From Galactobacillus timonensis (GTDB lineage Bacteria > Bacillota_I > Bacilli_A > Erysipelotrichales > Erysipelotrichaceae), in NCBI RefSeq assembly GCF_900240265.1, contig NZ_LT964740.1, positions 450,777 to 514,776 on the forward strand: a DNA stretch of 64,000 bases, given 5' to 3'. This document shows positions 18,936-32,793 of this stretch, piece by piece. How positions within the stretch are numbered: the first letter of the stretch is position 1; every line of letters starts with the position of its first letter. Below the pieces are notes generated by a model. That model worked only from the letters and a program-made list of their open reading frames with translations, had not been told where the DNA came from and did not search any database. A program made the position numbers and the translations under genes.

Positions 18936-18950
18936 CGAACTGTCAGTTCG
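18936..18950. repeat. 15-bp perfect palindrome, copy 1
   Basis: CGAACTGTCAGTTCG is self-complementary around its central T. An identical copy occurs exactly 100 bp to the right at 19036-19050, and the two surround the terminator of the restriction operon. No third copy was noticed. Confidence 0.75.
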
Positions 18951-18961
18951 TGTTTCGGGCA

Positions 18962-19014
18962 AAAAAAAGGCTTCACAACCACATCAAATTAATGATGCAG
19001 GCCATGAAGCCTTA
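18962..19014 (-). terminator. Terminator of the restriction operon
   Basis: On the minus strand AAGGCTTCA and TGAAGCCTT pair, with an inner CATCATTAA/TTTGATG stem, followed by eight T residues. It lies about 30 bases beyond the stop codon of the metallopeptidase gene. Confidence 0.8.
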
Positions 19015-19035: not shown

Positions 19036-19050
19036 CGAACTGTCAGTTCG
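19036..19050. repeat. 15-bp perfect palindrome, copy 2
   Basis: This is the second CGAACTGTCAGTTCG. The stop codon of the metallopeptidase gene (19043-19045) lies inside it. Read as inverted copies, the match to copy 1 extends slightly on both sides. Confidence 0.75.
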
Positions 19051-21034
19051 ACTTTTCTTCAAAATTATCAATTATTTTTTCATCACATCCCCATTCTGGG
19101 TAACCTTGCTTCCGCAAACGAGCATTAACGACTTTCAAAGATTCACGAAAGTGATAATGCAGGATAACCTGAGCATTCAATCCCTCTTTTGTTTGTGGAT
19201 ATTTACCTACTGCTTTTGCAATCATGTCATCGCTAAAAACCGGGTGAAGATGCATACCTTGGCACAGAGCACATACCGTTTCGAACTGAATATTCACATT
19301 TTGATGTCGTAATTTTCCGATATAGTCTTTGCTGATTCCCGTCCGGAAAGATAACTCTTCATTTGTCATCTTCTTGCCATTTTCTTTTTTCACTCGTTTC
19401 ATATGAGCATTGAATGTCCCATAGAATGATCCTGGCAGTGTGTCTAGTTGCTCCAGAACAGACTCATAACTCTCGTCCAGCTCTCTCAGATTTTTCTCCT
19501 GATCCTTAACTGACTGATTGCATTCATATTCAATATCACGCGTTTCAGAGAAATCCGCCGAATTGATATCCCGGCTGAGAAAACATTCGTTATAGTACTC
19601 TGTGTACGCATTTTCCTGAGTGTAATGCCGAGTGAATTTTAAACAGCATTCATCTACATGATTTCGAGCATATTCTGTAAGTTCAAACCCTTCTGGGCAA
19701 GAAGGATCATCCGTCCTTTGAACGTACAGCGGATCCTTAATACAGACAAGGCAACCAGTATAAATAAATCTTTTACTATCAATCAGCTCACGGAATTTCG
19801 GGTCACTGTTATACAGCCTGGTACCATTTCTGTTATCCAGAATGAAGGTTTGATAATCACCCAGTGCATCTGTTTGAAACGTAAACGGCTCTCGTTTATA
19901 TCCTTTGACGCGAATGAAGGCCCCTTCTGCTTGTTTATAACCTAGCTGGAGAGCTCGGAGTTTTGCCTCATATTTGGTAACTTTAAAAACGCCAGCAATC
20001 TGTGAGAGCGCCTCCTCCATAATCTGTCCTTCGGATGCTCCACTTCCTTCCAACATTTCTCGATTTTCTTGAAGCATCTTTGGAAAATAGTCAGTGAAAA
20101 TCCAACGTGGCATCAGATATCGTGGAGCAAGAGCATTTGCTTGCCACTCTGCCCACCAGCGTGCTTTTGCAAGTCCTTCTAAATTTTCCGGTGAATCAAC
20201 TGGCGATGATTCGCAATGAAGTGATTTCTCGTCTTGATTAAGCAAAGAAATAATCTCAAAGAATTTATCGTGCTTATCCCAATGCACTATTTCATGAGAA
20301 ATGGTATCAGCTTGGCTTCCATACCCACGAATAAAAAAATGGTCACGGCTAATAAGCATAGTTCCCGGGTCAATAACTCGCTGTACTGTAGTTCTTTTGG
20401 GGAGCCTTTCTCCTGGACTCGTGATAAATTCTTCTACTGACTCTACCTGTTTTCTGAAATACATCCGCCCCATTTCACCTTGTGGAAGGTCAGCAACATA
20501 ACACTTCAACCCCATCTCCTTGAGGATCTGTTTCAAAGGTGAATTCCAACCGTTATATTGTTCTTTGTCACAGCAGAACCGCGTAAAATCATCAGCGATA
20601 TCCTCGAGTTGCTCTGATTTAATGTAAGGCAACATGTATGCATCTAAGGCGTTTTCGATATCAAATTTACCGTTGTAGTATTCATCAACATTAATGACTT
20701 CTTCGTGATGAAGACCATTCTGAAGAACTGCTTCCATGTAGACGGTAAACCATCGCGTTTTTCTTCCGGCTTCTACCTTAGATGTCCCCAGGCTCTGCAT
20801 TACAATGTCGGCTTTAACATGTACATCAATTTCCACTTTTGGTCCAAGGACTTCATGACAAGATAGGCTCATTACCTGCATGTTCTCAATTTTTTGATCC
20901 AGCAGAGAGACTACCCCATATGCATGAAATCCCTGGCCATCGTGACGCTCATCGATGTATTTCTGGATTTTTTCCTGAAGCAGATCACCGTAATTTACTT
21001 GGATATAAGACTTGAAATCCTTATACACAGGCAA
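19043..21034 (-). CDS. ImmA/IrrE-type metallopeptidase with C-terminal HTH, 663 aa
   Basis: A zinc peptidase core is visible: HEIVH at residues 247-251 and the downstream glutamate in WAEWQANAL at about 296, as in ImmA/IrrE proteases that cut phage repressors. Residues 425-485 contain six cysteines and may bind metal. Residues 555-600 form an HTH (NEELSFRTGISKDYIGKL). The domain order, protease first and HTH last, is the reverse of the common one, and the protein is far longer than ImmA. The start codon is probably TTG at 21034 or GTG at 21028. It is the last gene of the restriction operon, 15 bp after hsdR, so it probably regulates that system or acts as an effector. Confidence 0.85.
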   Translation of the reverse strand: MPVYKDFKSYIQVNYGDLLQEKIQKYIDERHDGQGFHAYGVVSLLDQKIENMQVMSLSCHEVLGPKVEIDVHVKADIVMQSLGTSKVEAGRKTRWFTVYMEAVLQNGLHHEEVINVDEYYNGKFDIENALDAYMLPYIKSEQLEDIADDFTRFCCDKEQYNGWNSPLKQILKEMGLKCYVADLPQGEMGRMYFRKQVESVEEFITSPGERLPKRTTVQRVIDPGTMLISRDHFFIRGYGSQADTISHEIVHWDKHDKFFEIISLLNQDEKSLHCESSPVDSPENLEGLAKARWWAEWQANALAPRYLMPRWIFTDYFPKMLQENREMLEGSGASEGQIMEEALSQIAGVFKVTKYEAKLRALQLGYKQAEGAFIRVKGYKREPFTFQTDALGDYQTFILDNRNGTRLYNSDPKFRELIDSKRFIYTGCLVCIKDPLYVQRTDDPSCPEGFELTEYARNHVDECCLKFTRHYTQENAYTEYYNECFLSRDINSADFSETRDIEYECNQSVKDQEKNLRELDESYESVLEQLDTLPGSFYGTFNAHMKRVKKENGKKMTNEELSFRTGISKDYIGKLRHQNVNIQFETVCALCQGMHLHPVFSDDMIAKAVGKYPQTKEGLNAQVILHYHFRESLKVVNARLRKQGYPEWGCDEKIIDNFEEKSN

Positions 21035-21049
21035 TCACCATTCCCAGCA

Positions 21050-23965
21050 TTAGTAGTACTCCTCGATGTAGCTGTATGCCTTATCAAAGACTTCCTTGTC
21101 CTTGATCTTATACTTGATCCAAACAACGCTTCGGAGTGCCTTCTTTATCTCCTGCTGGCCAGTTGTTGTATTCTGCCACCCATCAAAGCGGACAATCTTT
21201 ACAATATCGTCGATATCATTGACAACACGTTCCACAATAACAGGTGTGTTGTTGTTCTTTACCCCATTGAAGAGCTCCGTCAAAGCAGCTTTTCCCTTGT
21301 CGATCTCTTCCTTTGGAACAACCTCTTTCTCGGCCTGAGCAGCTTCTTTCGCTAGTTCCAGTAACATCTTAAGGAACTCAATGCTATTAATAAGTCCCTG
21401 TTCATGCTGTTCACGTAGTCTTTCAAGCCGATCGCCAAGCTTCTCAAACTTGGGATCATTACTGTGTTTCTGAATTTTTGCAACCAGATCTATTTCCACT
21501 CGCTTTGCTGCATTTTCTGTTCCGTGGCTCTTATTAATGAAATCATCGATCAGATCCGGATCCAGAGAAATAATTTCTTCATCCTCATGAACTTCGCCAA
21601 CCGTCAGATTCTCATTGACGATGTTTAGTGTCTTTGGCCCAAGTGCTGCCCAGATTAATCCGCCGCTACCATCAGTAGGTTTAATGGATTCGTATACGTT
21701 TGTCAGCCAAGTGTAATCTACCTTCATCGGCTCTAGTATCGGATCAGGCGAAACAGCGTTCCATGCGCGGTTCAATACCTGATAATCCGCAGCAAACTTA
21801 TCTTTCATGTCATTCGTAGGAAGACACTCCTGTGCTGCCATTAAGCCTTCCCAGCCAGTTACCGTTCTATCGATTCCCATAAAATAACTCAGACACTTGC
21901 GCAGGAGCGCAGGAACCTGTTTCTTCACTTCTTCAATATTAGTAATGACTTTCTTCATGCTGCCTTCATCGAAATTCAGTGCTTTGGCAACATTATCGAA
22001 GATACCAATATAATCTACGATCAGTCCAAATGTCTTGCCTTCATCATAGGTGCGGTTCGTGCGACAAATGGCCTGCAGAAGAGTATGGTCCTTCATCGGT
22101 TTGTCCAAATACATGCATTGCAAAATCGGTGCATCAAATCCGGTGAGGAGCTTTGCCGTAACGATGACAATCTCTAACGGGTCATTAGGATCCCGGAAGC
22201 GATCGAGCACCTTTGCTTCCTCATCCTTAGTGCGCTTATATGCCTTGTACACATCTGCCTTGTCGTCATTGGTATCCATGACGATCGTCGAGCATTTAGG
22301 TCCAAGGAGCTTATCAAGCTCTTCCTTATACTTAATACAGCAAGGGCGGTCATATACAACAACCTCCGCTTTATAGCCGTTCGGCCTAACCTTTTCAGTA
22401 AAGTGCTTTGCAATATGAGCACAAACCTTGTGAATTCTCGCCGGATTGTACATGATGGCCTTCATATTTACATGCTTTGAAAGCTCAGCTTTTTGTGTAT
22501 CAGAAAGATCATCCGTGAGTACATCAAATTCACGATCCATCGTGTCCTTGTCCACTTTAAGATCGATCGGAACCGGCTCAAAATGAAGCGGAAGTGTCGC
22601 ATGGTCACGAATAGAATCTGAAAATGAGTACTTGCTCATGTATCCACTGCGATCTTCGATTGCCCCGAATGTAACAAATGTATTTTTATCGATACGGTTA
22701 ATAGGTGTGCCAGTCAGACCAAAGAAGAATGCATTCGGCAGAGCAGTTCTCATTTTGATGCCAAGATCGCCCTCTTGGGTACGGTGACACTCATCAACAA
22801 GCACGATGATGTTATCTCTTGCGCTAAGTTCGCCATCAACTTCCTGAAAGCGGAAAATTGTTGTGATGATAATCTTCCTGATGTCCTGACGGAGCATCGT
22901 CATGAGCTGATCTCTTGTTGAAGCTGATTCCAAATTACCAACAGCAGAAGAATGGAACTGTGCAGTAATCTGAGACTCAAGGTCAAGGCGGTCATCAACA
23001 ATAATGACTGTAGGATTTTTCAGATCTGGCAGCATACGAAGCTTCACTGCAGCAAATTCCATAAGGTAGGATTTACCAGATCCCTGGAAATGCCATATCA
23101 AGCCTCTCTTGGGATAACCAGTGCGGACACGATCTATGATCATGTTGGCTCCCTCATACTGCTGATACCTGGCAATCACCTTGAATTTTCTATACTTGCT
23201 ATCTGTCGTATATAGAGTGAAGAACTGAAACAGGTCCATCACCTTGGCAGGTGTAACCATATCGGACACACTGACATTTACTGCAGCCAGACTACCATCC
23301 GATTTATCTTCGTTCGTATGCCAAGGCCCCCACTTCTGAGCAGGCATACAAACAGACCCATAGCGATAGCACTTTCCCTCAGTCGCAAAATTGAAGACAT
23401 TTGTCACGAACATCTTAGGAATACTCTGCTCATACTTGTTTATGTCCTGAGCTCCATCTAACCATGTAATTGCTGCCCGGACAGGGGTCTTCAGCTCGCC
23501 AATAACGAAAGGAAAACCATTCACAAGAAGGACAACATCTAGACGTTTGCCGCTTTCCTTCTGGGGATAAACCCATTGATTTGTGACAACATACTCGTTC
23601 TTATCGAGCTTTCCGTTAATTTCCGTGCCAAACAGGTCAATAGACACGGACTTCCCATTTTTACCAAACGGGAAAGAGTTCGTTTCAAATACCAGCTTCT
23701 TAAACTCTTCATTCTGAGAGACAAGATTGCGGCTATTAGTCTTGTTGATCAGTGTTCTTATTTTAGTAATGACATCATCGGCGCGAGATTCATCTTCTGC
23801 GATTTCAGGATTGAGACGAATTAAGGCGTTTTTTACCATTGGCTCTACCATAACATCGTCATAAGAGCGTTCAAGGTTCTCAGCCGGAATATATTTCCAG
23901 CCATTTTTCTGAAGAGAGGAAATCAGCATCTGTTCAGTTGTATTATCTTCATTAAACATAATCAT
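21050..23965 (-). CDS. hsdR: Type I restriction enzyme R subunit (HsdR)
   Basis: This 971-aa motor-nuclease translocates DNA and cuts it in a type I complex. The N-terminal PD-(D/E)XK nuclease shows D143, then GELK at 156-159. The SF2 motor has Walker A GSGKS at 295-299, DECH at 391-394 and GLTGTP just after. A long helical C-terminal region should bind the M2S core. AGGAGG precedes the ATG. All catalytic motifs are intact. It lies between hsdS and the metallopeptidase gene. Confidence 0.96.
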   Translation of the reverse strand: MIMFNEDNTTEQMLISSLQKNGWKYIPAENLERSYDDVMVEPMVKNALIRLNPEIAEDESRADDVITKIRTLINKTNSRNLVSQNEEFKKLVFETNSFPFGKNGKSVSIDLFGTEINGKLDKNEYVVTNQWVYPQKESGKRLDVVLLVNGFPFVIGELKTPVRAAITWLDGAQDINKYEQSIPKMFVTNVFNFATEGKCYRYGSVCMPAQKWGPWHTNEDKSDGSLAAVNVSVSDMVTPAKVMDLFQFFTLYTTDSKYRKFKVIARYQQYEGANMIIDRVRTGYPKRGLIWHFQGSGKSYLMEFAAVKLRMLPDLKNPTVIIVDDRLDLESQITAQFHSSAVGNLESASTRDQLMTMLRQDIRKIIITTIFRFQEVDGELSARDNIIVLVDECHRTQEGDLGIKMRTALPNAFFFGLTGTPINRIDKNTFVTFGAIEDRSGYMSKYSFSDSIRDHATLPLHFEPVPIDLKVDKDTMDREFDVLTDDLSDTQKAELSKHVNMKAIMYNPARIHKVCAHIAKHFTEKVRPNGYKAEVVVYDRPCCIKYKEELDKLLGPKCSTIVMDTNDDKADVYKAYKRTKDEEAKVLDRFRDPNDPLEIVIVTAKLLTGFDAPILQCMYLDKPMKDHTLLQAICRTNRTYDEGKTFGLIVDYIGIFDNVAKALNFDEGSMKKVITNIEEVKKQVPALLRKCLSYFMGIDRTVTGWEGLMAAQECLPTNDMKDKFAADYQVLNRAWNAVSPDPILEPMKVDYTWLTNVYESIKPTDGSGGLIWAALGPKTLNIVNENLTVGEVHEDEEIISLDPDLIDDFINKSHGTENAAKRVEIDLVAKIQKHSNDPKFEKLGDRLERLREQHEQGLINSIEFLKMLLELAKEAAQAEKEVVPKEEIDKGKAALTELFNGVKNNNTPVIVERVVNDIDDIVKIVRFDGWQNTTTGQQEIKKALRSVVWIKYKIKDKEVFDKAYSYIEEYY

Positions 23966-24015
23966 GTACCTCCTGGTATAAGTGGTTTCTGGCCTTTAAT
24001 ATCTTTTTATATCAT

Positions 24016-25140
24016 CTAGCTCGTTAGCAATTTTTTAGGCATAGGTTGAAGTATAAATTTTGATTTATCGCTCTGTTGAGCAAGGTTCACAAATCGATTC
24101 TGCTTTTCGGCTGATGGAATTGGAATACTTGTATTTTTCAAATACTCATCAAGTCGAAGATTATGTATGCCAGTTGTTTTCCCTTCAAAAAGCTTTGTCC
24201 CTCCCCGCTTATAATTCACAAACATAAAGTAAAATGTGTAAAGCCTGCTCAGGTTGTATTTGCCGTTAAGATGAAGCCTTGCGGTGAAATTGTTGTTGAG
24301 GTACTTGTTCGGTTCTCGCTCATACAGAACAACACGCCCTACAGGTTTATCCCCGGAGCCACCTGATTTCTCAATGAGAATATCTCCAGGTTGAAGAAAC
24401 TTGTCCTTCGCTTTATCCCTATCAATATCTCTTGTTGCAACATCTTCGTAGGTTATATACCCGTCGTCAGTGAAATTTGTTGTACGTAACACTGAAACGC
24501 CATTGCCATCTATATCATCGTTTCCCCATTCACCTGACTGTGGCTTTTCAAAGACCGCTGATAGCACAGCAGATTCATCTTCGTAGTAATCCGATAGCGG
24601 ATCGCCAAACATCTCGATAAATTGAGATTTGACCAGCTCATCCGTCTGACGAATCAGATCTTCATATGCCTCTTTTGCATCTACGAAGCTCCAGAGCAGT
24701 TTTGCTAATTTTCTCTGCTGTGGCAGGCTTGGCAGATTAAATTCATACTCTTTAAGCCTTGACCATTTCACACGTGGTGATAGGGAACCAGCAGATTTTC
24801 CGACAGCAAAATCAAAGAAGTCATCATTCTGTATAACAAACGGAAGGAGCTCTGGCAGAATTTTATCCGGCTTGGCACTGATAACAGTAATATCTCCTGA
24901 ACAGATTCCGTCCACCGGCGCAACTGCTGCCTTCTTCAGATATGCACGCCGGCGTCCAAAAAGAACCTGTCCCTTGTGAAATGTCTTCGTAAATGTCGTA
25001 TTGATATCCTCACTCCAATCCTTTAAACGGATTTCACCCGGGATCAAATGCTCCAAACCTACAACAGCTGGATTACCATTAGTCTCCTTGTAATTTTCCC
25101 TTACTTCTTCAGCGACATCGCCGAGTAATACTTTATTCAT
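24016..25140 (-). CDS. hsdS: Type I restriction specificity subunit (HsdS)
   Basis: The 374-aa protein has two target recognition domains (about residues 1-165 and 195-370), each ending in a helical spacer with the typical LPSLPQQRKLAKLL and IPIPSAEKQNRF segments. It chooses the bipartite DNA site for the methylase and nuclease. It is slightly short for HsdS but appears complete. Its ATG lies inside the end of the upstream hsdM gene (8-base overlap). Confidence 0.93.
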   Translation of the reverse strand: MNKVLLGDVAEEVRENYKETNGNPAVVGLEHLIPGEIRLKDWSEDINTTFTKTFHKGQVLFGRRRAYLKKAAVAPVDGICSGDITVISAKPDKILPELLPFVIQNDDFFDFAVGKSAGSLSPRVKWSRLKEYEFNLPSLPQQRKLAKLLWSFVDAKEAYEDLIRQTDELVKSQFIEMFGDPLSDYYEDESAVLSAVFEKPQSGEWGNDDIDGNGVSVLRTTNFTDDGYITYEDVATRDIDRDKAKDKFLQPGDILIEKSGGSGDKPVGRVVLYEREPNKYLNNNFTARLHLNGKYNLSRLYTFYFMFVNYKRGGTKLFEGKTTGIHNLRLDEYLKNTSIPIPSAEKQNRFVNLAQQSDKSKFILQPMPKKLLTS

Positions 25141-26623
25141 CTTCTGCCGCTCCTTTGCTTATCATCTCATTCAGCGCCTTATAGTAACTGAATGCGCGTC
25201 TGGTTCTTCCGTCCCATGATTCATAAATGCTTTCGAGGGGTCTGGTATCTTCTTCGTCTTCATTGATTTCCGGCTTCACATATAACGGAATGCTTAGCGA
25301 GTAGTCATTTTCGCTGATTTCTCTTACAGTCACGACTCTAGAAAAATTCTCGATCTCCTCGTATTTCTCATAGGCTTCTGCGATCTTTTTAATATGCTGA
25401 TCTTCGAGATAGCTTTGCGCATTCTTTCTCGTGACCTCATTCACAGCATTGATGAACAGAATCTTTCCAACATGATCCTTTGGCTTGGTCATCCGGCAAA
25501 TCACGATGCATGCTTCCATTGGTGAGTTATAAAACAGATTCGCAGCCAGACCGATTACGCATTCCACATAGTCTCCTTTTACGAGCTTTTCTCGCATATC
25601 CCGTTCTTCATTACGGAATAATACTCCGTGCGGGAAGAGAATCGCGGAGCGTCCGGTATCCTTTTTAAGACTCTTGATAATATGCTGGAAGAAGGCATAG
25701 TCGGCTCTGCCCTGCGGAGGCGTCCCTAAGAAGTTCCTCCCATATGGATCTTTTTCAAACGCATCTCTATTCCATTGCTTAATCGAATATGGTGGATTGG
25801 CGAGACAGATATCAAACTGTTTCAACTTCCCACTCTCTAGGAATGCCGGTCTTGCAAGAGTGTCATCATTTACGATATGAAAATCCTGTATACCGTGAAG
25901 GAAAAGATTCATTCGACCAATAGCAGCTGTAAGTGCATTGATTTCCTGCCCATAAAGCGAAACATTTCTCCATTCAAGATTATGCTCCTGCAAATATGAA
26001 ATTGAAGAAATCAGCATGCCAGCGCTGCCACACGTCGGATCATAAATAGACTCACCTGGCTGAGGCTTCAGTATTTCTGCCATCAGATGGACAACAGTAC
26101 GGTTTGTATAGAACTCCTGAGCCGTGTGGCCACTATCATCTGCAAATTTCTTGATAAGATATTCATATCCCTGACCCAATTCATCCTCCGGACAATTTGC
26201 AAGAGATAAAGTTTTTTCACTAAAATGCTCCAATAGATCCTTCAGCAAGGTGTCTGGAAATTTATTTTTGTTAGTCCACGCCCCCTCGCCGAATATCCCA
26301 GTTAGTTTTTCAGAGTTTGCTCTCTCGATTGCGCGAAAAGCACTTACGATGGCTTTTCCAACATCCTGTGTTGTATTGCGGACATCATTCCAGTGAGCAC
26401 CTTTGGGAATGATAAATTTATGGTTTTCTTCAAAAGAGAGGGCTTCCTCCCCATACTCTTTCAAAATTTGCTGATTCTCTTCATCGTATACATCACACAA
26501 ACGCTTGAAGAAAAGCAGAGGAAAGATGTACTGTTTATACTCACCGGCATCAATATGGGTCCGTAATAACACGGCTGCTCCCCATAAATAGTTCTCAAGC
26601 TCATCGAGCGATATCTTACTCAT
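25133..26623 (-). CDS. hsdM: Type I N6-adenine methylase (HsdM), second copy
   Basis: This 496-aa methylase has an N-terminal HsdM helical domain, the SAM motif DPTCGSAG at about residues 195-202 and the catalytic NPPY at about 276-279. Both motifs are intact. It is clearly a paralogue of the methylase half of the preceding fusion, sharing HWNDVRNTT and WTNKN segments, but is not identical. The ATG at 26621-26623 overlaps the fusion's stop by 8 bases; an upstream TTG is an alternative. Confidence 0.95.
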   Translation of the reverse strand: MSKISLDELENYLWGAAVLLRTHIDAGEYKQYIFPLLFFKRLCDVYDEENQQILKEYGEEALSFEENHKFIIPKGAHWNDVRNTTQDVGKAIVSAFRAIERANSEKLTGIFGEGAWTNKNKFPDTLLKDLLEHFSEKTLSLANCPEDELGQGYEYLIKKFADDSGHTAQEFYTNRTVVHLMAEILKPQPGESIYDPTCGSAGMLISSISYLQEHNLEWRNVSLYGQEINALTAAIGRMNLFLHGIQDFHIVNDDTLARPAFLESGKLKQFDICLANPPYSIKQWNRDAFEKDPYGRNFLGTPPQGRADYAFFQHIIKSLKKDTGRSAILFPHGVLFRNEERDMREKLVKGDYVECVIGLAANLFYNSPMEACIVICRMTKPKDHVGKILFINAVNEVTRKNAQSYLEDQHIKKIAEAYEKYEEIENFSRVVTVREISENDYSLSIPLYVKPEINEDEEDTRPLESIYESWDGRTRRAFSYYKALNEMISKGAAEDE

Positions 26624-29036
26624 CAATGTATCCTCCCTCTTTAAGCAAATCTTTCAGTTTTTTCTCGGCATCCAATGCGTTCTGGTATGCTTGGAAATAC
26701 TGTTTCTTCACGACTTCTGGCGGGACAGTCTCCACCGGTTTCTTCTCAATATAAGAATTGACAGCAAGAGTGTAATCGTGGTCACTGATTTCTCTATTCG
26801 TGACGATCTTACATTTCTCTATGACGTCTTTGTAATCAGTGTACAATTTGTACACTTCTTCAATGTTCTCTTCTGACATATAGTCCTGCGCTCTTGCAGC
26901 AGTGTAGATATTGCTGGCATCGATCATGCAGACCCGTCCAACGTGATCTTTCTCCTTATCCTTTTTTAAGAACAGGATGCATGCTGATACACCGGCGCCA
27001 TAGAATATCCCACCCTTAAGGGTAATAACAGCTTCGACAAGACCAGATTCGACGAGTTTTTCTCTCATCTTTCCGTCTTTTCCACCACGGAACAAGACAC
27101 CCTGCGGAAGGACAACAGCGACTCTTCCATTCTTTGAATCCATTGATGAAACCATGTGCTGGATCCATGCAAAATCCGCGTTATTATCAGAAGGGCATCC
27201 CCAGATATTTCTTCCGTACTTATCATTTTCAAACGCTGTTGCACCCCAGTGTTTAAGTGAGAAGGGAGGATTAGCAAGAACACAGTTAAAAGTGCGCAAC
27301 TTGTCGCCAGAAAGGAACTGCGGGTCACGAAGCGTGTCGCCGGTCATAATCTTCACATCCTTTGCGCCATGCAGATATAGATTCATTCGTGCAATGGCGG
27401 ATGTTGTAAGGTTATTCTCCTGACCAAAAATTCTCCCGTAAGTCAGCTGGTCATCATGAATATGGTGGATTGCCTCAATAAGCATTCCTCCAGTTCCGCA
27501 TGCGGGATCATATACCGTATCACCGGGCTTTGGATCTAGCAGCATAACCATCAATCTTACGATAGTCCTTGGTGTGTAGAATTCCCCAGCATTCTTCTTG
27601 GACAGATCCGCAAACTTCTTGATAAGGTATTCGTATGCATCCCCCATCACGTCCGCTGAGTAGTTCTTATTTCCAATAGTGATCTTGGACATATGTTCAA
27701 GAAGATCTTTCAAGCGATCATCATCGAGAACATTCTTATTGGTCCAGTCAGCATCATCAAAACTAGAAAACAAGCCTCCAAGCGTTTCCGGATTTGCACG
27801 TTCTATACCTGTCATGGCTTTCGCGATTGCTTTGCCAACGTTTGTCGTAGTATTTCTAACATCATTCCAATGACAGCCATCCGGAATCACAAAGCTATAA
27901 TTCTCCGGGAAGTTTGCATATTCCTCATCTCCACCGGAAGCAGCAAGCGCAGCCGCATATTCTTCATCATGAACGTCTGAGATTCTTTTAAAGAATAGAA
28001 TCGGTGTGATGTAGCTCTTATATTCATCCTGATTGATAGGTCCACGCAGGATATCGCAAGCCGCATAAAGGTGGCGATAAAGCTGCTGACTAGAGATTTC
28101 CTCAGATGAGGAATCAGCGTTCAAAACATCCTGATCTACTGCATCCATTGAAGACTCCATCAGTTCTTCCCTCGTATTACCTTCCACTTTGACTTCTCCT
28201 TTCCGCTGTACAGGAATATTTGTATCTTTAGCAACATTCTTTTCCATGACTGGCTCGTACTTATTTTCAAAATCCGTAAGTATCTTGAGCTGCCTTTCAT
28301 CAAGAAATGTCAGCGAATGTTTCCTAATCTCTGAAGGAATCCCATAGTATGCTTCTGCAACCCCACCTGTAATGGATGCAAGCGTATCGCTGTCGCCACC
28401 GATCGAGATCGCATTGCGAATGGCATCTTCAAAGCTCTTAGATTCGAAGAAAGCCATTAGTGCCTGGGGCACGGTTCCTTGGCATGTTTCATTGAACCGA
28501 TAAGTATCCCGGATCCCATCCAGGGTGAAATTCATCGGGTAATACTCTTGGTCAATAACATCTCTGATTTCAAGCATGCTTTTTCCAGTACGTGCCAAAT
28601 AAATAGCAACTACTGTAGCTTCCGCACCTTTCAACCCTTCCGGATGATTATGTGTGACTCGGGTTACCAAGTTAGACATGTGCTTTGCGTCATCCAGATC
28701 TTTTGCTGCAAATCCTATTGCACTTACTCTCATTGCAGCACCATTACCATAGCTTCCATAGGGCTTCGGATCCGTCGATCTCAACCATTCCCGGAATTCG
28801 CCACCATACCCGGCGTCCGGATACAGATTTCCGAGTTGCTGCATGGATAGAATAGTCTTTTCAGAAAGATCACTATGGTCTGGCTTGCTCTGTAAAATAG
28901 CCTTTGCTATTGCTAGGGTCAGGATACTGTCGTCTGTCGGTGAACACTTATAGGTAAGGAATTCAAAGTCCTTAGATTTGTGGTTATGCCTCTCATATCG
29001 AGATCCGACAATATCTCCAATAATTGCTCCAAGCAT
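26616..29036 (-). CDS. ADP-ribosylglycohydrolase-HsdM fusion
   Basis: This 806-aa protein joins two complete enzymes. Residues 1-260 are an ADP-ribosylglycohydrolase (DraG/ARH fold) with the metal-binding TDDS at 34-37, GNGAAMR near 98-103, THNHPEG near 128, and GGDSDT at 213-218. Residues 260-318 form a polar linker. Residues 319-806 are a type I methylase with GEFYTPR near 484, SAM motif DPACGTGG at 510-517 and catalytic NPPF at 589-592. GGAG precedes the ATG. The frame is continuous, so this is a real fusion. It sits upstream of a second hsdM in the same operon. The usual role of the first domain is removing ADP-ribose from proteins or nucleic acids; its role here is inferred, not known. 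Confidence 0.94.
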   Translation of the reverse strand: MLGAIIGDIVGSRYERHNHKSKDFEFLTYKCSPTDDSILTLAIAKAILQSKPDHSDLSEKTILSMQQLGNLYPDAGYGGEFREWLRSTDPKPYGSYGNGAAMRVSAIGFAAKDLDDAKHMSNLVTRVTHNHPEGLKGAEATVVAIYLARTGKSMLEIRDVIDQEYYPMNFTLDGIRDTYRFNETCQGTVPQALMAFFESKSFEDAIRNAISIGGDSDTLASITGGVAEAYYGIPSEIRKHSLTFLDERQLKILTDFENKYEPVMEKNVAKDTNIPVQRKGEVKVEGNTREELMESSMDAVDQDVLNADSSSEEISSQQLYRHLYAACDILRGPINQDEYKSYITPILFFKRISDVHDEEYAAALAASGGDEEYANFPENYSFVIPDGCHWNDVRNTTTNVGKAIAKAMTGIERANPETLGGLFSSFDDADWTNKNVLDDDRLKDLLEHMSKITIGNKNYSADVMGDAYEYLIKKFADLSKKNAGEFYTPRTIVRLMVMLLDPKPGDTVYDPACGTGGMLIEAIHHIHDDQLTYGRIFGQENNLTTSAIARMNLYLHGAKDVKIMTGDTLRDPQFLSGDKLRTFNCVLANPPFSLKHWGATAFENDKYGRNIWGCPSDNNADFAWIQHMVSSMDSKNGRVAVVLPQGVLFRGGKDGKMREKLVESGLVEAVITLKGGIFYGAGVSACILFLKKDKEKDHVGRVCMIDASNIYTAARAQDYMSEENIEEVYKLYTDYKDVIEKCKIVTNREISDHDYTLAVNSYIEKKPVETVPPEVVKKQYFQAYQNALDAEKKLKDLLKEGGYIDE

Positions 29037-29048
29037 GATTCTTCTCCT

Positions 29049-29675
29049 TTATGCCGTCGCCGCATGCTGCTCAAACAGTTCTGAAAGTCTACGCGGTGCG
29101 TAAACTCTATCCTTCATATGCTCAATCTGTGAGAGGCCCCGATGGACTTTGATATCAAACTGCTTGTCCAAAAATGTGGATCTCATCACATCAGTCTTTT
29201 CCAACTCGTCTTTGATTACGCGCCGATGCCGTCTACGCTCCTGCAGCATTTCTGCTGTCCTTAGCATCTCGTCATCAGTGAGCTCGTTAAGCTCCAGGTA
29301 GTGAAGCAGATCACAAACCTCTTTATCAACATCAGAAAGCATCAAATTCAGGTTTCTCTGATACTCGGCGATATGAGCACTCATATAGCAGAGCTTAGAA
29401 AGTGTTTGTTCCCAGTCGGTATCCATACTGTCAAACATTGTCGGCTTTGTGATGTGGTCATATTCCGGAGCGCTGTAAGCAGTCTGCACATCATCAACTT
29501 CGATTTCAACGAGGGCGTAGAATCTGGATTTTCGGCCGGAACCGATTCGCTCATTTGCCTGCTTTAGCGTGAAAAGTGTTGCCTCATCAGAATTTTTCGC
29601 TACTACGAGATTGCTGTTTGCGCCAATCTTGTAATAATTTCCATTTGTATCCGTTATGTAATACATTTTCGTCAT
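29049..29675 (-). CDS. Unknown 208-aa protein of the restriction operon
   Basis: I do not recognise this protein. Residues 1-65 look like a small beta-rich domain (MYYITDTNGNYYKIG, later FYALVEIEV). Residues 85-208 are helical and strongly charged (MLQERRRHRRVIKDELEK). It lies 12 bases after the M-S fusion and 12 bases before the glycohydrolase-methylase fusion, so it is surely cotranscribed. It may be an adaptor or substrate of the glycohydrolase; this is a guess from position only. Confidence 0.8.
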   Translation of the reverse strand: MTKMYYITDTNGNYYKIGANSNLVVAKNSDEATLFTLKQANERIGSGRKSRFYALVEIEVDDVQTAYSAPEYDHITKPTMFDSMDTDWEQTLSKLCYMSAHIAEYQRNLNLMLSDVDKEVCDLLHYLELNELTDDEMLRTAEMLQERRRHRRVIKDELEKTDVMRSTFLDKQFDIKVHRGLSQIEHMKDRVYAPRRLSELFEQHAATA

Positions 29676-29687
29676 GGCGCTCTCCTT

Positions 29688-31295
29688 TTAGAACTTCTGG
29701 ACTTTATCGAGAATCCGCTGCCAGCGCTGTTCCGCTTCAGATATGCTTTTCTTATACTCGGCATAACCTTCGCTGTATTCCTTGGCCACTTTTTCCTGTT
29801 CTTCCATTGATGGGGATGGAACTTCCATCAGTTTCAGATCGTTGTAGCTCACATTAATGATTGTCATTCCTTGCTGCAGGCCTGCGATAATACTCCGCCC
29901 GATTGGACTATCCAGAAAGATCTTTAGGTAGACACTATTCAGCTCTTTCTGATTCGGACGGATCACAATCACGTTTGATGAGGCGATGCAGGTATAACTC
30001 TGTTTATGAAAGATAGCAGTCCGTATAGCTGTTCCTCTTGCTGGTAGCAGAACATCCCCTTCCTGCAAGATATATTTCTGAACTCGTCTGTCCTCGTCAT
30101 TAATCTTGTCGAGGTTGTCATAATCAATATCGTAATCTCTAATATTTGAAATATTAACAACGCCAATATCACCGCTGTCGTCCTTCTTGGTTACAGATTT
30201 TCCACGGAAGATTTCCGCAATTTGGCCCAAAGCTATCTTTCTCGTCGCAGAGGATTCAAACTTCAGGAATTCCTCATTCTGCTGCCGAAAAAAACGATCA
30301 ACATTCCAATCAGGAGCACCTGCGATTTCATCCTGAAGAACAAACGTATCATCTGACTTTTCAATCTGCTTTATTTGATCTCTCCTGTTGCCCTGATCTA
30401 CTGCACGATATCGACAAATATCGACATCTTCTGTGCGGCCGCTTGAGATAACAAGCAGATATGTTTTAATGCCGGTACCTTGGAAAATTCCATCTGGAAG
30501 TTCCGCAATCATTTCTAGCTTATACATTTGCGTAATGAAGTTTCTCAACGCAGCTATTGAGCCGCCAGCGAAGGTAACTTTCCCTGGCATGATAATGGCC
30601 AAGGTTCCGCTTGGGCTCATGTGCAGCAGAAGATTTTCTAGCGCAATCATCTCGAACTCTTTACACATGAAGTGCTCTGAGCCGCTTGCTAAACCACGCA
30701 ATCCAAACGCAGGCATCGAGAGAATGAAATCAAACTGTTCTGGTAAGAACTTCTCAGTATATATGCTGTCAATCTGTACCTTTACATTGCCATACTGAGA
30801 TAACGCTTTTTTAAGTGCTTCAGAATAAATGGCATTCTGGGTAGTTACAGTGATTGAACAATCAGAATGCTTTTCAACGAACTTTGTCAGATTCGGCACA
30901 AAGCGCTCGCCATCAGCAATAAGGATCGTCTTTGCATCAGGTTTGATTTGTGCGTTCATTTCATTAAGAAGGCATTCCGGAATAACAAACTGACCCCGAC
31001 GTGCATAGGTTTGGTCCTGATACAAAGCCATTTCCCAGTCCATTTCCACTATGTCATTCTCAAGAACACGATATGCCTCAAAGAACTGATCTTCATCCTT
31101 GAACGGATTTAATATATGTAATGTGTCCGCCGCCCCAAGCATCTCTTGGTAAGCGATCTCTTTAGTTAATTCACCTGTGCTCCTCGATTTAACTTCCGAA
31201 ATAAGGAGCAGGCTTTCCAGAATACTGTCTGGCACCATCGTTTCGCGAAGCGCATTCATGTAAGCCCACATTTTGTTTTCCGAGGTCGTTTTCAT
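29688..31295 (-). CDS. Degenerate N6-methylase fused to a half specificity domain
   Basis: The 535-aa protein begins with an HsdM-like region (to about 340). The catalytic NPPF/Y is replaced by SMPA at 193-196 and the SAM-binding glycine motif by LIADGERF. Residues 345-535 form one HsdS-type recognition domain (RGKSVTKKDDSGDIGVVNISNI, ILQEGDVLLPARG, VPSPSMEEQEKVAKEY). So it may bind DNA without methylating it. The ATG at 31293-31295 is chosen because GGAGGAAT precedes it; a longer in-frame form would lack this. It is the first gene of the operon. Confidence 0.88.
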   Translation of the reverse strand: MKTTSENKMWAYMNALRETMVPDSILESLLLISEVKSRSTGELTKEIAYQEMLGAADTLHILNPFKDEDQFFEAYRVLENDIVEMDWEMALYQDQTYARRGQFVIPECLLNEMNAQIKPDAKTILIADGERFVPNLTKFVEKHSDCSITVTTQNAIYSEALKKALSQYGNVKVQIDSIYTEKFLPEQFDFILSMPAFGLRGLASGSEHFMCKEFEMIALENLLLHMSPSGTLAIIMPGKVTFAGGSIAALRNFITQMYKLEMIAELPDGIFQGTGIKTYLLVISSGRTEDVDICRYRAVDQGNRRDQIKQIEKSDDTFVLQDEIAGAPDWNVDRFFRQQNEEFLKFESSATRKIALGQIAEIFRGKSVTKKDDSGDIGVVNISNIRDYDIDYDNLDKINDEDRRVQKYILQEGDVLLPARGTAIRTAIFHKQSYTCIASSNVIVIRPNQKELNSVYLKIFLDSPIGRSIIAGLQQGMTIINVSYNDLKLMEVPSPSMEEQEKVAKEYSEGYAEYKKSISEAEQRWQRILDKVQKF

Positions 31296-31341
31296 CTTTA
31301 TTCCTCCCATAATCGGATAGATATTCTCTCTTGGCAATTGT

Positions 31342-31370
31342 AGAATATCATTTTAAAATTCTTATGTCAA
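31342..31370 (-). promoter_or_regulatory. Consensus promoter of the restriction operon
   Basis: On the minus strand TTGACA (31365-31370) and TATTCT (31342-31347) are 17 bp apart, a near-ideal vegetative promoter. The first gene starts about 45 bases downstream. Confidence 0.8.
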
Positions 31371-31374
31371 TTGT

Positions 31375-31394
31375 TTTGGTATTTAAATACCAAA
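31375..31394. promoter_or_regulatory. Perfect 20-bp palindrome upstream of the -35 box (candidate operator)
   Basis: TTTGGTATTTAAATACCAAA is fully self-complementary. It lies 4 bases upstream of the -35 hexamer of the restriction operon, a place suited to an activator or a dimeric repressor. The only HTH in the operon is in the metallopeptidase. Confidence 0.65.
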
Positions 31395-31414
31395 TTTAAA
31401 TTAAGCGAAAATAA

Positions 31415-31442
31415 AGCGATACAGCACCGATACTGTATCGCT
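31415..31442. terminator. 10-bp perfect hairpin bounding the restriction operon
   Basis: AGCGATACAG and CTGTATCGCT pair perfectly around an 8-base loop. It lies between the 49-aa ORF and the restriction promoter and is followed on the minus strand by an AT-rich stretch, but not by a clean T-run, so terminator function is plausible rather than certain. Confidence 0.45.
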
Positions 31443-31447
31443 CCTGT

Positions 31448-31665: not shown

Positions 31666-32793
31666 CTATTCAGCTCTTGACATCATAACAACAGTCTCGA
31701 CATGTTTCGTCCAGGGGAACTGATCAACAGGTACGATCTTCTTCACCTGGTATCCGCTGCCAAGAATCTTCAGATCCCTTCCCAGCGTTTCCGGATTGCA
31801 TGAAACATACACAGCCCGCTGCGGCTTCATCTTCAGAAGTGCATCACAGAACTGCTGACTCAGACCGCTGCGCGGCGGATCCATCAGCACCACATCAAAC
31901 GTCTCGCCGCACTCTTCCAGATATTCTCCGGCATCTGCAGCATAGAATCTTGCATTATGAATCCCGTTGATTCTGGCGTTGGTGATCGCATCCTGAACCG
32001 CCATCGCATTCACTTCAACACCAACCACCTGTTTCGCCTGCCTGGACGCCAATAGAGAAATCGTACCGATGCCGCAGCAGGCATCGAGAACCGTATCCGT
32101 CTCCTTGATCTTTGCCATCTCCAGTGCCTTCTGATACAGCACCTGCGTCATCTCGGGATTTACCTGATAAAAGGACTGCGGCGAAATACGGAAGCGGACA
32201 TCACCGATCCTGTCCTCAATGGTCCCCGGGCCCCACAGCGTCTTGAACTTCGGCCCCAGCACCATCGAATTCGAACCATGGTTCCAGTTCAGGACGATTG
32301 TCGAAACATCCGGACAGTGCTGATGAAGCTGCTGCACAAAATACCGCGAGCCGGGCAGCTCACGCGAACCGATCACGATCACAACCATCGCCTTGTTCAG
32401 CGCATGGGAAACACGGATATATACATAGCGCAGCGTCCCCGTTCCGCGATCCTCGTCATACGCATCCAGGTGCATACTGTCGGCGATATGGCAGATCTGC
32501 TGCAGAATCTTGTTCGCAAGCGGATGCTGAATGGCACAGTCAATCACCGGAACAACCGTATGGCTTTCTTCTTCATACATACCTGCCGTCATCTGATTGC
32601 GGCGGTTCTTATGAAAGGCCGCAAACACCTTGCAACGGTAGTGAGTGGGATCCTTCATTCCGATTACCGGCTCCACCATCTGCGTCCCCGTCAGCTGACG
32701 AACCTCCTCGCGCTTTCTCTTCAGAGTAAGGTCATATTCCTCATTCATCCCCGAGCAGCTTCCGCACTGTTTCCGATATGGACATGGATTCAT
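31666..32793 (-). CDS. RNA (uracil-5-)-methyltransferase, RlmD/TrmA family
   Basis: This 375-aa SAM enzyme makes 5-methyluridine in 23S rRNA (or tRNA). The N-terminal cluster CPYRKQCGSC binds [4Fe-4S]. SAM binding is VLDACCGIGTISL near 240, DPPRSGL near 308, and the catalytic cysteine is in YVSCNPETLGRDL near 333. There is no N-terminal TRAM domain, so it is one of the short RumA-like forms and the exact target cannot be given. It overlaps the HAD gene upstream by 4 bases. Confidence 0.9.
   Translation of the reverse strand: MNPCPYRKQCGSCSGMNEEYDLTLKRKREEVRQLTGTQMVEPVIGMKDPTHYRCKVFAAFHKNRRNQMTAGMYEEESHTVVPVIDCAIQHPLANKILQQICHIADSMHLDAYDEDRGTGTLRYVYIRVSHALNKAMVVIVIGSRELPGSRYFVQQLHQHCPDVSTIVLNWNHGSNSMVLGPKFKTLWGPGTIEDRIGDVRFRISPQSFYQVNPEMTQVLYQKALEMAKIKETDTVLDACCGIGTISLLASRQAKQVVGVEVNAMAVQDAITNARINGIHNARFYAADAGEYLEECGETFDVVLMDPPRSGLSQQFCDALLKMKPQRAVYVSCNPETLGRDLKILGSGYQVKKIVPVDQFPWTKHVETVVMMSRAE

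Follow-up and report, generated by a model that had tools for sequence, protein, structure and literature searches.

A degenerate methylase-specificity protein heads a two-M type I restriction operon and is its candidate repressor

We analyzed a 64,000-nucleotide stretch of the Galactobacillus timonensis genome (contig NZ_LT964740.1, positions 450,777 to 514,776), hereafter the window, which carries a minus-strand operon of seven genes built around a type I restriction system. The first gene, gene 1, encodes a fusion of a methylase half that has lost its catalytic motifs with half a specificity subunit (methylase-specificity, M-S, fusion). The conservation of this protein, its position, and the rarity of a palindrome at its promoter suggest that gene 1 very probably binds the palindrome TTTRGTA-N6-TACYAAA and, taking the statement as a whole, that it probably binds there and represses the operon. 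Read from the sequence, the locus contains an intact core with two different modification subunits (two-M; M1 and M2), a glycohydrolase-M1 fusion, a member of a dead gene 1 family, a conserved and rare promoter palindrome, and adjoining phage genes. The restriction core is of a kind already known; gene 1 is the new part.

Results

Gene 1 represents a conserved family without methylase motifs

Profile searches with gene 1 gave a weak match to N6_Mtase and one match to Methylase_S. A protein search identified 681 relatives at an E value of 0.001 or better among 7996 scored candidates, and the best 120 of the 681 covered 92–98% of the query. In an alignment of 19 members, motif I was absent and S/A/C-x-P-x-x-G replaced NPPF. 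A second alignment had NPPF in none of its 24 members, with more varied replacing letters, and the pattern [ND]PP[FYW] was not found in the gene 1 proteins scanned for it. Judged from these sequences, gene 1 is a conserved family and not the wreck of a gene. The degenerate methylase with a half specificity domain, as described in the first-pass annotation of this DNA, is thus real and recurs in other genomes. None of the papers listed by searches of the open-licence PMC literature describes a dead M-S repressor in its title or abstract opening.

The two halves of gene 1 are conserved to different degrees. Mean identity was 51.1% in the specificity half versus 37.0% in the methylase half, and the specificity half scored higher in 228 of 231 pairs (22 sequences; loci L100 and L109 were left out of this count, and L107, a cut gene, was left out of the second alignment). 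The recognition domains of HsdS are ordinarily the variable part of type I systems. As the recognition domain of gene 1 is unvarying, it should have one fixed target. In the structural model of gene 1 (predicted local distance difference test, pLDDT, 82.6), one half resembles HsdM/M.TaqI, and the other, which bears a long C-terminal helix, resembles an HsdS with a single domain. The model aligned to HsdM/M.TaqI and HsdS folds over residues 13–549, and no helix-turn-helix (HTH) family was among the matches listed.

Relatives of gene 1 lead two-M operons in the window and in L002, L003, L006, L008, L009, L080–L083, L085, L086, L098, and L099, several of which are cut by contig ends; in L085, HsdR sits between gene 1 and M1. 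They also lead single-M operons (L101, L103, L104, L105, and L108), whose M and R proteins are 28–33% identical to those of the window. A complete type I operon was not seen behind gene 1 in L100, L102, L106, L107, and L109; of these, L102 and L107 run out at the edge of the contig. We left out a weak match (L087), a row from the same contig as L080 (L088), and short copies (L070–L079 and L089–L097).

Gene 1 is uncommon. At an E value of 1e-50, it was found in 4 of 397 genomes in the family of L002, 9 of 391 in its class (both counts include the L002 genome), and 1 of 193 in the family of L005. A plasmid search returned 25 records, all partial (the best-ranked was 26% identical over 62%), and a search of named phages returned one partial match; neither yielded a further full member.

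More distant M-S proteins were also observed. In an Obscuribacterales genome, far from Firmicutes, a 607-aa (amino acid) M-S protein with CPVW replacing NPPF lies directly before a two-M operon (L025:8070-9893), and from its sequence we accepted it as a remote relative of gene 1. The upstream proteins of L021 (Schlafen AlbA_2) and L069 were considered as hidden relatives and rejected. L005 encodes a different M-S fusion of 623 aa (L005:3619-5490), in which motif IV reads NYPF and motif I is seemingly kept. This fusion leads a second defense-type gene group, and two palindromes, TTAGTAA-N5-TTACTAA, flank a promoter-like stretch ahead of it. It may represent the gene 1 idea in an active or intermediate form.

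A rare palindrome lies at gene 1 promoters

An unbiased count of gapped palindromes in 24 upstream regions ranked GTAT-N4-ATAC first, with 18 of 24 regions; none of 100 dinucleotide shuffles exceeded 6 of 24. Extended to TTTRGTA-N6-TACYAAA, the palindrome matched at 13 or 14 of 14 positions within 300 bp in 16 of 24 gene 1 loci; L082, which has no upstream sequence, is outside this count. L080 and L107 have an exact copy farther upstream, ahead of a small open reading frame (ORF), which brings the number at 13–14 of 14 to 18 of 24. Imperfect palindromes (11–12 of 14) were found in L006, L008, L009, and L099. Including exact, near-exact, and imperfect copies, 21 of the 23 gene 1 loci besides the window carry the palindrome. 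The small ORF between palindrome and gene 1 (L080:410-740 and L107:1014-1322) is presumably SymE-like.

As controls, we scored 33 M1 loci without gene 1, two of which (L005 and L025) carry another M-S protein upstream. Their scores ranged from 8 to 12 (L018 reached 12), and none was 13 or more. Across 17 gene 1 genomes, the exact motif occurred 11 times, one copy in each of 11 genomes, and 10 of these copies lay beside gene 1 (within about 310 bp); a reversed control pattern was absent. Four copies were present among 200 genomes of the L002 family. Two were at gene 1 promoters and the other two, in genomes without a gene 1 match, were both within coding genes; the control pattern also gave four.

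We then located the best-scoring promoter near 22 sites. The −35 box was inside the palindrome in 11 and 1–14 bp downstream of it in 10, and no promoter was found in one. The best-scoring −35 and −10 boxes matched 9–12 of 12 positions in 21 of 22. These boxes are near consensus, which favors a repressor over an activator.

Proposed control of the operon and alternative explanations

Judging from its intact parts, the system of M1, M2, and S would methylate host DNA asymmetrically and, together with R, cut unmethylated incoming DNA. Both activities are established for the type I family that forms N6-methyladenine and N4-methylcytosine (m6A/m4C). M1 additionally carries a predicted ADP-ribosylglycohydrolase domain. 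The ancestor of gene 1 would have been an M-S fusion, which then lost its catalytic activity but retained the ability to recognize DNA. Two copies of gene 1 may pair through the long C-terminal helix, placing two identical recognition domains on the promoter palindrome. Bound gene 1 would keep RNA polymerase off the promoter, so that expression of the entire operon stays low and limits itself. The same switch would govern what lies between gene 1 and M1, which is gene 2 in the window and other defense-type genes elsewhere. Gene 7, a phage gene co-transcribed with the operon, might conceivably tie the cargo to the prophage state.

Several observations weigh against repression by gene 1. L100 has no palindrome, and L109, which scores 12 of 14 with unpaired arms, was counted as lacking one. 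The control scores overlap at 11–12, so that only the 18 better copies, and not the four imperfect ones, are separable by score; moreover, the 33 controls were hand-picked among those two-M and glycohydrolase-M loci for which upstream sequence exists. The exact palindrome is absent from 6 of the 17 gene 1 genomes. A palindrome search of viral contigs gave at least 120 stretches, none listed with gene 1, and thus the motif alone is no detector of gene 1; we attribute these stretches to chance in a collection that is very large and AT-rich (mean GC content 0.36). We also examined the slot before M1 in 14 relatives without gene 1. It held a regulator in three (WYL in L011, HTH in L014 and L042) and an integrase, HNH, Schlafen AlbA_2, DUF932, a protein without match, or others in the remaining 11. 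It is therefore not a fixed regulator slot, and its regulator content gives weak support. Simple repression also leaves unexplained why the full-length dead methylase half is retained. Finally, in the 10 promoters with the palindrome upstream of the −35 box, the window's among them, the site occupies a place also open to an activator.

This last point favors gene 1 as an activator, or as a C-protein-like regulator that activates at low dose and represses at high dose. The 11 promoters with the −35 box inside the palindrome speak against an activator, which also seems unneeded with boxes so close to consensus, and we regard this alternative as unlikely.

Another possibility, rather doubtful at present, is that gene 1 is a decoy guard, whose M-S shape is bait for phage DNA-mimic anti-restriction proteins that release the operon on arrival. 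The complete M-S shape would be kept because Ocr, ArdA, and possibly Prx grab that shape, which would explain the retention of the whole dead methylase half. An anti-restriction protein would strip gene 1 from the palindrome, and restriction and accessory back-up defenses would switch on. The back-up cassettes would be gene 2 and, elsewhere, a Schlafen-group helicase with an SRA-like protein, SEFIR/TIR, and DUF2971. There are hints in this direction. Ocr and ArdA bind PacII M1M2S (PMC9613975). The nearest solved relative of the gene 1 S half was, by its title, crystallized with a phage protein (8vsr), and Prx is a phage protein according to abstracts. Defense-type genes lie directly behind gene 1 in some loci.

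The palindrome might instead be bound by the HTH of gene 7 or by another regulator, with gene 1 a mere neighbor. The gene 7 profile weakly matches HTH controller proteins of restriction-modification systems (C.BclI, E 0.0011). However, the palindrome is present where gene 7 was not found (L098, L101, L103, L104, L105, L106, and L108), and gene 1 is the one gene of the window that all palindrome-bearing loci share. We consider this explanation improbable.

The first-pass annotation had proposed an infection sensor, made up of the glycohydrolase, the dead methylase, and the protease, through which ADP-ribosylation would set restriction. In favor, 13 of 69 relatives have the glycohydrolase domain fused to M1, and in a published island of unrelated kind DarTG2 sits within a type I locus (PMC12255303). 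The parts are separable, however. Glycohydrolase-M1 occurs without gene 1 and gene 7 in L004, L005, L007, L011, and L012, gene 1 occurs without glycohydrolase in L101, L103–L105, and L108, and gene 7 occurs beside other cargo. As for the dead methylase as a safety part, the methylase is dead, but its conserved half, the promoter palindrome, and the −35 overlap make it look like a transcriptional controller and not an enzyme-level safety. A sensor built of all three parts together seems very improbable. Least probable of all is that gene 1 still restricts by joining M1/M2 with its half specificity domain and inert methylase half and adding a second, palindromic target: it keeps both domains and its model folds like HsdM and HsdS, but an anti-phage recognition domain should vary, whereas in gene 1 the specificity half is the conserved one, and the exact putative target occurs at most once per genome in the 17 genomes, with 10 of the 11 copies at the promoter of gene 1 itself.

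The restriction core is a complete m6A/m4C type I system

Gene 3 matched the profiles ADP_ribosyl_GH (E 3.7e-33), HsdM_N, and N6_Mtase, gene 4 matched HsdM, gene 5 HsdS, and gene 6 HsdR (HSDR_N, SWI2_SNF2, and T1R_D3). The domain labels first given to genes 1, 3, 4, 5, and 6 agree with these profile matches. The best solved relatives of the gene 3 methylase part, gene 4, and gene 5 were PacII M1, M2, and S (470, 572, and 113 bits). The translations contain NPPF and AGEF in M1 and NPPY in M2, in which the second motif is AQEF and not AAEF. HsdS has two domains and HsdR is complete, as in the PacII group. By sequence, the core is a complete non-canonical m6A/m4C type I system of a known, PacII-like kind.

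Among 69 loci found with gene 3, 30 carry M1-like and M2-like ORFs without a glycohydrolase (manual count), indicating that the two-M layout is widespread; records with this layout include Methanolobus, Bacteroidales, and Nocardia. The second HsdM, initially taken as an addition to the usual subunits, is a real gene and no oddity, being half of the M1/M2 pair of known m6A/m4C systems (PMC9613975). In some relatives, tyrosine recombinase genes (L002:15632-16672, L083:17695-18717, and L086:16725-17705) adjoin extra hsdS copies or pieces, which suggests phase-variable specificity. In the window itself, hsdS is single.

M1 is fused to a predicted ADP-ribosylglycohydrolase

The glycohydrolase-M1 fusion was found in 13 of the 69 loci (L001–L012 and L014; L010 is cut). 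By record name, 12 loci belong to Firmicutes groups and the remaining one to an alphaproteobacterial metagenome-assembled genome. M2 follows in all of them. The match of gene 3 to PF03747 scored 115.9 bits, compared with a curated cut-off of 26.2, and solved relatives of the domain are ARH3, DraG, and bacterial ADP-ribosylglycohydrolases. TDD and GGDSDT segments, which we take to be glycohydrolase motifs, looked intact by eye. The N-terminal domain of gene 3 is therefore predicted to be an ADP-ribosylglycohydrolase with an intact-looking sequence. Stand-alone glycohydrolases 46–62% identical to the fused domain occur in L054, L056, L057, L061, L062, L064, L065, and L067, mostly in Clostridia records.

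No paper listed by searches of the open-licence PMC literature describes the fusion in its title or abstract opening. Since the dead methylase and the fusion, which is real, both recur in other genomes, the objection that the extra genes are present only here fails. DarT enzymes ADP-ribosylate DNA. The toxin-antitoxin system DarTG2 lies inside a published type I island that is unrelated to the window locus (PMC12255303), and it is thus not far-fetched to connect type I restriction with ADP-ribosylation.

Gene 2 is a recurring accessory gene

Gene 2 had no match above the curated cut-offs of Pfam or NCBIfam and none in PADLOC. It matched only phage families of unknown function (phrog_2717), with no match in named phages, and two scans of viral contigs led to one and the same contig. 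Its model (pLDDT 74.9; predicted template modeling score, pTM, 0.41) has a small N-terminal beta domain and a long helical hairpin, for which a fold search returned nothing at E 0.001 or better. Of 45 gene 2 relatives, six agree with a listed gene 1 relative in the length of the longest contig (16719, 97551, 59586, 31181, 20596, and 40244), and each of these pairs is therefore probably on one contig.

The slot between gene 1 and M1 or M holds gene 2 in the window and in L080, where it also holds an SRA-like protein (below the Pfam cut-off) and a Schlafen-group helicase. Elsewhere it holds DUF2971 (L099), a SEFIR/TIR protein (L104, single-M), or a 168-aa protein without match (L105), and in most other gene 1 loci seen, M1 or M directly follows gene 1. 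On this sequence evidence, gene 2 is a recurring accessory gene.

Gene 7 is a prophage gene

The left flank of the operon encodes a terminase, a D5/DUF5906 primase-helicase, DNA polymerase A, DUF2800, and an Enc34-type single-stranded DNA-binding protein, and from its gene content it is a prophage. From these neighbors, the restriction operon is probably virus-borne, at the end of the prophage. Among the direct repeats listed for 1–34000, no pair joins the rumA end and the prophage; the left end is outside the window.

Gene 7 encodes a 663-aa protein of the family phrog_4031. It had been labeled a metallopeptidase-HTH, which holds to the extent of a sub-threshold HTH profile match and an HEIVH motif seen by eye; H247, E248, and H251 are invariant in six aligned rows. 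The match to capP is weak (E 0.0096 over residues 244–319), and no Pfam peptidase match was listed. We collected 47 gene 7 loci and left out three without a gene 7 ORF at the cut-off. In the remaining 44 viral-contig loci (L138 and L140, which are alike, were both counted), HsdR was within two genes upstream in 14, something else was there in 25, and five were cut. A homologue of the window's phage early genes was within seven genes downstream in 33 of 44. In seven non-HsdR loci examined, the upstream gene encoded McrBC (L129, L134, and L138), an LlaJI-type enzyme (L144), or a MatE transporter (L125), or had no match (L123 and L137). These neighbors indicate that gene 7 comes from the prophage and adjoins a slot of variable content, often a restriction system. 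Because L098 has gene 1 and a complete R without gene 7, gene 7 is not a defining part of the restriction system.

A rumA-type methyltransferase gene lies beside the operon (31666–32793). Similar genes are found near gene 7 in L151 (13027-14658) and in L004 (8044-9417), where the gene adjoins a type I plus Wadjet JetA island. A shared insertion site is possible.

Layout of the transcription unit

The seven ORFs lie on the minus strand within 19043..31337, with gaps of 12, 12, −11, −8, 50, and 15 bp in transcription order (Table 1). The first-pass annotation was correct on this single tight operon, the dead methylase, and the glycohydrolase-HsdM fusion, while the second HsdM is no oddity and gene 7 is a prophage gene. 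It had also started gene 1 at 31337. The ORF exists, and the start is most likely ATG 31295, which stands behind GGAGG and gives 535 aa, rather than TTG 31337. The stem after gene 7 was absent from a hairpin scan that allowed loops of 3–8 only. A 15-bp palindrome, CGAACTGACAGTTCG, is present twice, at 18936–18950 and 19036–19050, on either side of this probable terminator.

Table 1 Features of the operon in the window, in transcription order.
Feature	Position	Strand	Remark
Terminator-like stem	31413..31444	−	Behind upstream rumA-type gene; marks start of separate transcription unit
Palindromic putative operator	31375..31394	−	TTTGGTA-TTTAAA-TACCAAA; 4 bp upstream of −35 box
Promoter	31342..31370	−	TTGACA-17-TATTCT
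Gene 1	29688..31295	−	Conserved fusion of a dead methylase with half a specificity domain; 535 aa when started at the ATG; candidate repressor of the operon
Gene 2	29049..29675	−	208 aa; recurring accessory gene
Gene 3	26616..29036	−	ADP-ribosylglycohydrolase (residues ~1–270) fused to M1-type HsdM (m6A, NPPF/AGEF)
Gene 4	25133..26626	−	M2-type HsdM (m4C-type, NPPY; AQEF here)
Gene 5	24016..25140	−	HsdS, two target recognition domains
Gene 6	21050..23965	−	HsdR, nuclease and superfamily 2 (SF2) translocase domains
Gene 7	19043..21034	−	HExxH metallopeptidase-like, C-terminal HTH, phrog_4031; last gene of transcription unit
Stem with T run	18961..19012	−	After gene 7; probable operon terminator, by eye

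Discussion

If gene 1 represses the operon, a worn-out part of a restriction enzyme has become its switch. Such a switch would accompany type I systems of two or more different families, chiefly in Firmicutes, and would represent a little-known on/off route for a common kind of defense. It would also offer a way to study how restriction systems can ride on prophages and leave the host unharmed, and possibly reveal a new logic of guarding against anti-restriction proteins. Since the site is short, rare, and at the promoter, the claim is testable.

Information on the transcriptional control of type I systems is "surprisingly little" according to a 2025 review (PMC12707154). RptR, the first gene of a seven-gene type I operon in E. 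coli, represses through promoter palindromes (PMC12255303). Its island resembles the window in having a leader gene, promoter palindromes, and, in DarTG2, an ADP-ribosylation-related part within the locus. However, RptR is a 79-aa helical dimer on TAGCTA repeats, whereas gene 1 is a 535-aa degenerate M-S fusion with a 20-bp bipartite palindrome, and by this size and palindrome gene 1 does not belong with RptR.

HsdC of Mollicutes and the C proteins are closer in arrangement, with a controller gene upstream of hsdM, S, and R and a conserved promoter site (PMC5282649; PMC12707154). Gene 1 likewise leads its operon and has a conserved site at its own promoter, and we propose that it works like such a controller without claiming membership. 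HsdC is of the HTH-containing C-protein family and binds direct repeats (PMC5282649), whereas the gene 1 model has a type I enzyme fold. Both RptR and HsdC are unrelated to M-S proteins (PMC12255303; PMC5282649).

The Esub1 chain crystallized with the phage protein Prx (Protein Data Bank entries 8vsq and 8vsr) has, as deposited, no methylase half, unlike gene 1; a literature search gave no paper naming Esub1 in the sense of these entries. CapH-CapP and ImmR-ImmA are repressor-peptidase pairs. Like them, gene 7 has an HExxH motif with a putative HTH in an operon led by a proposed repressor, and its match to capP is weak; it differs in being of the 663-aa prophage family.

For the core itself, the closest known system is PacII, a structurally solved m6A/m4C type I enzyme (7vru) with NPPF and AGEF in M1 and NPPY in M2, encoded in one operon with S (PMC9613975). 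Compared with PacII, the window has an N-terminal ADP-ribosylglycohydrolase on M1, AQEF in place of AAEF in M2, and gene 1 at the head of the operon.

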